64,000 nt of DNA, from positions 248,001 through 312,000 of the forward strand of contig JAHUUI010000002.1 in the NCBI GenBank assembly GCA_019218315.1, given 5' to 3'. Shown one piece after another: positions 56,045 to 57,979 of this stretch (positions are counted from its first letter, which is position 1; each line of letters begins with the position of its first letter). The notes beneath the pieces were generated by a model. That model was given only the letters and a program-made list of their open reading frames with translations, was not told the origin of the DNA and did not search any database. A program made the position numbers and the translations under genes. The stretch comes from Cardiobacteriaceae bacterium TAE3-ERU3. GTDB taxonomy: Bacteria; Pseudomonadota; Gammaproteobacteria; Cardiobacteriales; Cardiobacteriaceae.

Positions 56045-56539
56045 ATGAGCAAATTTACCCTCACCAGCCCAACCATTAAAGAAGGTGAAACCTTACCTAA
56101 CACCCACGTCTTTAACGACTGGGGTTACAAAGGTGACAATACTTCACCAGAATTGCATTGGCATAATGCCCCAGAAGGCACCAAGAGCTTTGCTATATCG
56201 TGTTACGACCCTGATGCTCCTACTGGTTCAGGCTTCTGGCACTGGTACGTCATTAACTTACCTGCGAATACCACTTCTCTACCTGTCGGCGCAGGCAATC
56301 CTGATCAGCCACAACTCCCTTCTGGCGCCCGTTCGATGAACAACGATATCGCACAAAAAGGTTTTGTCGGCGCATTTCCACCAGAAGGTGATAAGCCGCA
56401 TCGCTATATTTTTACCGTCTATGCACTGAGCGTAGAGCAGCTTGACCTTCCAGAAAACGCCACAACCGCTTTTGCCGGATTCAACGTTCTGGGTAACACC
56501 CTTGCCAAAGCAACATTGACAGCTCATTACAGCTGTTAA
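56045..56539 (+). CDS. YbhB/YbcL (PEBP, Raf kinase inhibitor-like) protein
   Basis: A phosphatidylethanolamine-binding-protein fold, 164 residues, probably cytoplasmic as no signal peptide is visible. Ligand-site stretches are present: KGDNTSPELHWHNAPEGTKSFAISCYDPDAPTG (in part), FWHWYVINLPAN, and GFVGAFPPEGDKPHRYIFTVYAL. The biological role of bacterial members is unclear. GAGAGGA precedes the ATG, which is 12 bases after aapP, so it may be transcribed with the transporter. Confidence 0.9.
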   Translation: MSKFTLTSPTIKEGETLPNTHVFNDWGYKGDNTSPELHWHNAPEGTKSFAISCYDPDAPTGSGFWHWYVINLPANTTSLPVGAGNPDQPQLPSGARSMNNDIAQKGFVGAFPPEGDKPHRYIFTVYALSVEQLDLPENATTAFAGFNVLGNTLAKATLTAHYSC

Positions 56540-56566: not shown

Positions 56567-56588
56567 TGGGCTGCCATCTGGTGGCCCA
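56567..56588 (+). terminator. Hairpin after the PEBP gene, weak terminator
   Basis: TGGGCTGCCA (56567-56576) and TGGTGGCCCA (56579-56588) form a 10-pair stem with two wobbles and a 2-base loop. The following bases are only moderately T-rich (AATTGTTTAC), so termination would be partial. Confidence 0.35.
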
Positions 56589-56633
56589 AATTGTTTACAC
56601 TGTGCAAAATCCTCATCTTCAACTGGAGCCACC

Positions 56634-56809
56634 ATGAAACCTGAAAAAGCCAATCACGACCTCACCAGCAAACTGACCGGCTTACCCAACAATGTTGGCA
56701 ACAAAATGGAGGAAGGCTTACATGCCATAGGCATTAACACCCCGAAGAAATCGAATACTATTTGCACACACCTCTCGAACCTCAGGTAACGACTATCGGC
56801 AACCATTGA
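56634..56809 (+). pseudogene. Small HhH-like ORF with frame disruption, coupled to the next gene
   Basis: ATG at 56634 with GGAG upstream opens a frame whose residues LTGLPNNVGNKMEEGLHAIGI look like a helix-hairpin-helix motif. That frame ends at 56787-56789. Reading on in the -1 frame from the C4 run at 56740-56743 gives PEEIEYYLHTPLEPQVTTIG and a stop at 56807-56809 that overlaps the next start as TGATG. This junction strongly suggests the real protein is about 58 residues and that one base has been lost, by mutation or sequencing error, or is bypassed by frameshifting. The HhH resemblance is my own reading and its function is unknown. Confidence 0.5.
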
Positions 56810-57480
56810 TGAATTTTGATCCAGCACTTGCCAGCAATACGATACTCGCCATAATTGGCCTATTATGGCTGGCACTAACCATTTACGCGGCATTTACCGT
56901 GCGCTGGCATATCGTGCGCGAATATCCATTTACCGTACATATCTTTTTTGCCACCTGTATCGGCCTTAGCTTATTGGCAATGATGCGTACAGGCGTCAAG
57001 CCCGGTCTTGGTATTCATCTAATTGGCTTGACCGCAGCAACCTTAATGATGGGCTGGCGACTTGCATTGCTGGCCGGCGCCATCAGCCAATGCCTTTTGG
57101 TCCTAACCGGCTATGAAGCCATCATTGCTCTCGGCATCAATGGGTTATGTCAAGTAATCATCCCTGTTGCTATAAGCTTCTGGTTTTGCCGCCTTTTACA
57201 ACGCTTGTTACCGCACAATCCTTTTGTATTCACCATTGGTGCCGGCTTTTTTGGAGGCGCATTATCACTTGCTGCCGCACTGGCAACTTCGGCATTTTTG
57301 CTCCACGTACTTGGTGTCTATGATTGGACGTTGCTATGGGAAAAATATCTACGCTTTACATTAATCGCTATTTACCCCGAAGGCTTCATTAATGGTGTCT
57401 TTATCAGTTCAATGGTAGCCTTTCACCCTCGCTTAATCAGTGCGTTTAATCCTGACAGCTATTTTGGAAAGCATCCTTGA
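56809..57480 (+). CDS. CbiM-like (COG3235) energy-coupling-factor-type membrane protein
   Basis: A 223-residue protein with six or seven hydrophobic helices. The layout resembles the COG3235/CbiM-type integral membrane proteins: GVKPGLGIHLIGLTAATLMMGWRLALLAGA contains the typical HL.G....L.G.W.A motif of cobalt/nickel permease relatives. No CbiQ or CbiO partner gene is adjacent, so transport through an ECF module cannot be shown. The start ATG at 56809 overlaps the stop of the small upstream ORF (TGATG); an in-frame TTG lies one codon earlier. Confidence 0.75.
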   Translation: MNFDPALASNTILAIIGLLWLALTIYAAFTVRWHIVREYPFTVHIFFATCIGLSLLAMMRTGVKPGLGIHLIGLTAATLMMGWRLALLAGAISQCLLVLTGYEAIIALGINGLCQVIIPVAISFWFCRLLQRLLPHNPFVFTIGAGFFGGALSLAAALATSAFLLHVLGVYDWTLLWEKYLRFTLIAIYPEGFINGVFISSMVAFHPRLISAFNPDSYFGKHP

Positions 57481-57643: not shown

Positions 57644-57979
57644 GTGGCACTTTTTCTCAAAGCACTACTCGGCGCCGCAGCCGTAGTTGTAATTCAGTTA
57701 TTCAGTCAGAGTCGTTTGTTTTATCTCGCCGGGCTAGTACCGCTATTTCCGACTTTTGCACTAATCAGCCATTATTTGGTCGGCAGCCAGCGCAGCCCAA
57801 GTGACTTACAGGCTACAGCTCTCTTTGGCCTTTGTGCTTTGGTGCCTTACGCCGCCTACCTGATCAGCGTTTATTGCTTCACCACGCGCCTGCCTCTATG
57901 GATCAATTTATTCGCATCATCCTTGATTTGGTGCATATTTGCTGCAATCTTGATCTACTTGTGGCAGCGATACGTATAA
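57644..57979 (+). CDS. glpM: GlpM family membrane protein
   Basis: A 111-residue protein with four hydrophobic helices. It closely follows the E. coli/Pseudomonas GlpM pattern: LFLKALLGAAAVVVIQL, YLAGLVPLFPTFALISHYLVG, LQATALFGLCALVPYAAYL and LPLWINLFASSLIWC. In Pseudomonas GlpM has been tied to alginate and glycerol metabolism; the molecular function is not known. The start codon is GTG with AAGGA upstream. A bidirectional terminator follows directly. Confidence 0.85.
   Translation: MALFLKALLGAAAVVVIQLFSQSRLFYLAGLVPLFPTFALISHYLVGSQRSPSDLQATALFGLCALVPYAAYLISVYCFTTRLPLWINLFASSLIWCIFAAILIYLWQRYV

Follow-up and report, generated by a model that had tools for sequence, protein, structure and literature searches.

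A small open reading frame (ORF) at positions 56634–56789 of the window, the 64,000-nucleotide stretch of Cardiobacteriaceae bacterium TAE3-ERU3 DNA analysed here, is very probably the decayed, 3′-truncated remnant (pseudogene) of a cdd1-family gene, which encodes a small helix-hairpin-helix (HhH) protein of about 95 residues. The apparent frameshift within it is ordinary gene decay and carries no special coding signal. An otherwise orphan ORF is thereby explained as the remnant of a known family that is seemingly dying out in the genus, and its annotation should be that of a pseudogene fragment, neither a new gene nor a recoding site.

On the forward strand, the ORF begins with an ATG (56634–56636), is preceded by the Shine–Dalgarno motif GGAG (56625–56628) and ends in the zero frame with TAA (56787–56789). 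It contains a C4 run (CCCC, 56740–56743), the proposed shift site, from which the −1 frame reads PEEIEYYLHTPLEPQVTTIGNH and stops at TGA 56807–56809. This stop shares one base with the ATG (56809–56811) of a gene for a CbiM-like membrane protein (56809–57480, forward strand; PF01891 above cut-off). The sequence-only reading had taken this arrangement as the mark of an ancestral gene, intact at about 58 residues, that was broken or shifted at the C4 run. On checking against the sequence, its coordinates are all correct, from the ORF and the C4 run to the −1 frame and the overlap of TGA and ATG (56807–56811); the −1 frame is open to its stop as described, but the translation quoted was short by two residues, NH. 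The locus is single copy in its own genome and is known from one genome of the species.

The family assignment comes from a profile built from ten full-length Cdd1-family relatives (PF11731-like, about 95 residues), from which the window sequence was left out. Searched against the six-frame ORFs of the window, this independent profile matches the zero-frame ORF with E = 1.3 × 10⁻⁶, covering residues 1–40 (56634–56753; profile positions 1 to 39 or 40), with position 1 falling on the ATG at 56634. The N-terminal HhH segment is thus homologous to that of Cdd1, which bears out the 'HhH-like segment' of the sequence-only reading. As in the Cdd1 family, the ORF has an M-x-P-x-K start aligned with profile position 1, an LTxLPN-[I/V]G HhH segment and a GI-x-x-P motif. 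Unlike the family, it lacks the C-terminal half, carries one extra hairpin residue and falls below the curated cut-off of Pfam PF11731 (25.5 bits), scoring 18.1 bits in the 58-residue reading and 14.6 bits in the 51-residue reading. The DPC and WW..RK motifs of the C-terminal half are absent in all frames, and the genome holds no second match. The extra residue lies in an Asn-Asn pair (AAC AAT, 56688–56693, forward strand) inside the hairpin, which reads LPN-N-VG in the window, whereas each of the eight full-length relatives in the alignment has LPN-[I/V]G.

Residues 1–41 also share 41.5% identity with WP_229937577.1, a helix-hairpin-helix domain-containing protein from a Sulfurovum mangrovi plasmid that, unlike the window ORF, is complete at 95 residues. 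Together with the weak Pfam match, this protein points to a link with small HhH proteins some 95 residues long. The HhH-like segment resembles TfoX_C (PF04994) as well, but the match is weak (E = 0.17; 12.5 bits against a cut-off of 23.1) and Cdd1 fits better. The Cdd1 family (PF11731) is entitled 'Pathogenicity locus' and is named for the cdd1 gene that flanks the C. difficile PaLoc; cdd1 of C. difficile is not itself a toxin (PMC4986448).

Searches with cdd1 profiles were extended to 32 genomes of the order and to 12 genomes of the family Cardiobacteriaceae. Whole cdd1 genes (95–98 residues) are found in three Cardiobacteriaceae of other genera (G004, G007 and G009), all at other loci: the gene is flanked by truB-like and queA-like genes in G007, and by genes for an NtrC-type regulator and a murB-like protein in G004 and G009 (names judged from the translated sequences). 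In G001, the second genome of the genus, only profile positions 35–89 remain, interrupted by in-frame TGA and TAG codons and adjoining genes for a WYL-type regulator and a VOC-type protein. This second, separate remnant in the genus corresponds to the C-terminal half and lies at G001:C1:1530531–1530695 on the minus strand (L045). The genome of the window itself gives one cdd1 match, to positions 1–41 of 96; as the window sequence was part of the profile used there, the E-value is not independent. Each genome of the genus therefore holds a different broken piece of cdd1, and neither has the gene whole. The relatives of about 95 residues, taken with the half-gene in G001, point to an ancestor of about 95 residues, not 58. 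Contig C4 of the genome that holds the window also encodes an HhH protein of 85 residues, which proved to be the product of a distinct, nusB-linked gene. Conserved HhH-like proteins of 82–85 residues, not of the Cdd1 family, are encoded downstream of a nusB-like gene in the own genome and near one in G007 (L065, 986–1243; L066, 998–1246).

Upstream of the remnant lies a gene for a YbhB/YbcL-like phosphatidylethanolamine-binding protein (56045–56539, forward strand; PF01161 and TIGR00481 above cut-off). In Rappaport israeli, the ybhB-like gene is followed directly by the cbiM-like gene, no ORF separating the two, and the junction reads TAAACCATG; the same arrangement, again without an ORF, is seen in a Cardiobacteriaceae metagenome-assembled genome (MAG; G011, L191), where the junction is TAATG. 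In G001, ybhB and cbiM lie far apart and the ORF is absent beside either gene. The remnant at the ybhB–cbiM locus is thus an addition found only in its own genome. The sequence-only reading had held that the frameshift interpretation would be wrong if relatives lacked any ORF here; this is in part the case, in Rappaport israeli and the MAG. The 58-residue reading has no homologue in 57 relatives, in the 32 genomes of the order, in 369 genomes of the class, or in phages, IMG/VR viral contigs and GTDB contigs; among plasmids, its sole match is the Sulfurovum Cdd1 protein. Searches of PHROGs, NCBIfam and the PDB gave no match for the ORF.

Whether the reading frame truly shifts at the C4 run was assessed from the homology of the two alternative tails. 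With exact ends, the zero-frame and −1 tails score equally against the profile (27.6 bits each), and 30.2% and 17.6% of shuffled tails, respectively, score as well. A single +1 or −1 shift, tried at each codon from 10 to 50, never raises the score more than 0.9 bits above that of the unshifted frame. The equal scores and this negligible gain mean that a shift at the C4 run is not indicated by homology. Codons 1–40 are unambiguous, and beyond codon 40 the family is followed in no frame: the tail (56754–56808, forward strand) matches neither the Cdd1 family nor, in DNA alignments, the 3′ half of cdd1 or the 5′ flank of cbiM in G001. The frameshift proposed by the sequence-only reading consequently finds no support, given that both tails score alike and that neither restores the missing C-terminal residues, about 55 in number. 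Its intact ancestral gene holds in so far as the ORF descends from a real, broken gene, but the family measures about 95 residues, of which the last 55 or so are absent in every frame. It is possible that a shift at the C4 run was one step of the decay; the protein would still miss more than half of the family length.

These results bear directly on the idea that one base is missing at the C4 run through a sequencing or assembly error, the true ORF being 58 codons long and coupled to cbiM. The homopolymeric nature of the run and the openness of the −1 frame up to the cbiM start are in keeping with such an error, but the match to the family is not improved by taking the −1 tail in place of the zero-frame one, and a gene of 58 codons would still be truncated. 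Moreover, when the 3,204 ORFs of G001 were compared with the window (at least 45% identity), 75 matched over 51,314 bases and none of them was split between frames. The lack of any split frame across these 51 kb makes a base error less likely, and we regard it as improbable. A programmed −1 frameshift, yielding a protein of 58 residues whose translation would be coupled to that of cbiM, is more doubtful still and seems to us extremely improbable. It would account for the stop that overlaps the start as TGATG, and in the MAG the stop of the upstream neighbour likewise overlaps the cbiM start (TAATG); however, the sequence around the run (AAC ACC CCG AAG AAA) contains no in-frame X-XXY-YYZ slippery heptamer, the fold of 56725–56830 is weaker than that of shuffled sequences (z = +1.31), with no downstream stem-loop, and the 58-residue reading, and with it the site, has no relative in the order or class samples. 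Nor is the junction itself, which the sequence-only reading had judged unlikely by chance, a rare event. The cbiM-like gene starts with ATGAAT, such that TGA at 56810–56812 would close the same frame even without the TGA at 56807. Because the gene begins with ATGA, a stop overlapping its start is cheap in that frame, and only the approximately 22 stop-free codons need explanation. In 20,000 dinucleotide shuffles of 56744–56808, the frame stays open to a start-overlapping stop in 39.8% (a chance of 0.40), and 8.9% reproduce TGATG exactly; when 9,118 segments taken from the window itself were put in front of this start, the frame remained open in 44.7%. With such frequencies, the junction is no argument for an intact gene, and the −1 frame with its overlapping stop is what chance allows. 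More generally, where a downstream gene opens with ATGA, a stop overlapping its start carries little weight as evidence.

A working HhH protein of 51 residues, translated from the zero frame as far as the stop at 56789, would be compatible with the open frame, the good Shine–Dalgarno motif and the recognisable N-terminal half. The loss of the C-terminal half and the extra hairpin residue speak against it, as does the absence of this short form from the 32 order genomes, the 369 class genomes, phages, plasmids, IMG/VR and GTDB contigs, and we consider it unlikely. The stop-free N-terminal half and its ribosome-binding motif do sit less comfortably with a pseudogene, since a short peptide could, judging from these signals, be translated, and the extra hairpin asparagine could be tolerated. 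It nevertheless appears to us highly improbable that a species-specific truncated HhH microprotein continues to be made, whether or not the frame shifts at the C4 run, and has translational coupling to the cbiM-like gene as its main role.

We therefore favour the decayed cdd1 remnant. The start signals and first 40 or so codons survive from the ancestral cdd1-family gene, one codon has been added within the HhH hairpin and about 55 C-terminal codons have been lost, presumably with loss of function, although the order of these events is conjectural. The stretch now leading into the cbiM-like gene is either unrelated or eroded past recognition, and no frame after the C4 run yields a complete Cdd1 protein.

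A terminator-like hairpin (9 pairs, loop of 4; 0.5 expected in shuffles) lies directly 3′ of ybhB on the forward strand (56567–56588), and may thus set both the remnant and the cbiM-like gene apart from the upstream operon. The CbiM-like protein has an orthologue of 67% identity in G001. The cbiM-like gene that follows ybhB in Rappaport israeli (L015, L192) contains five in-frame stops over the match and hence looks like a pseudogene. On the 3′ side of the cbiM-like gene in the window, 57644–57979 encodes a hydrophobic protein of 111 residues whose NCBIfam match, to PRK09272.1-5, is weak (18.3 bits; cut-off 162).
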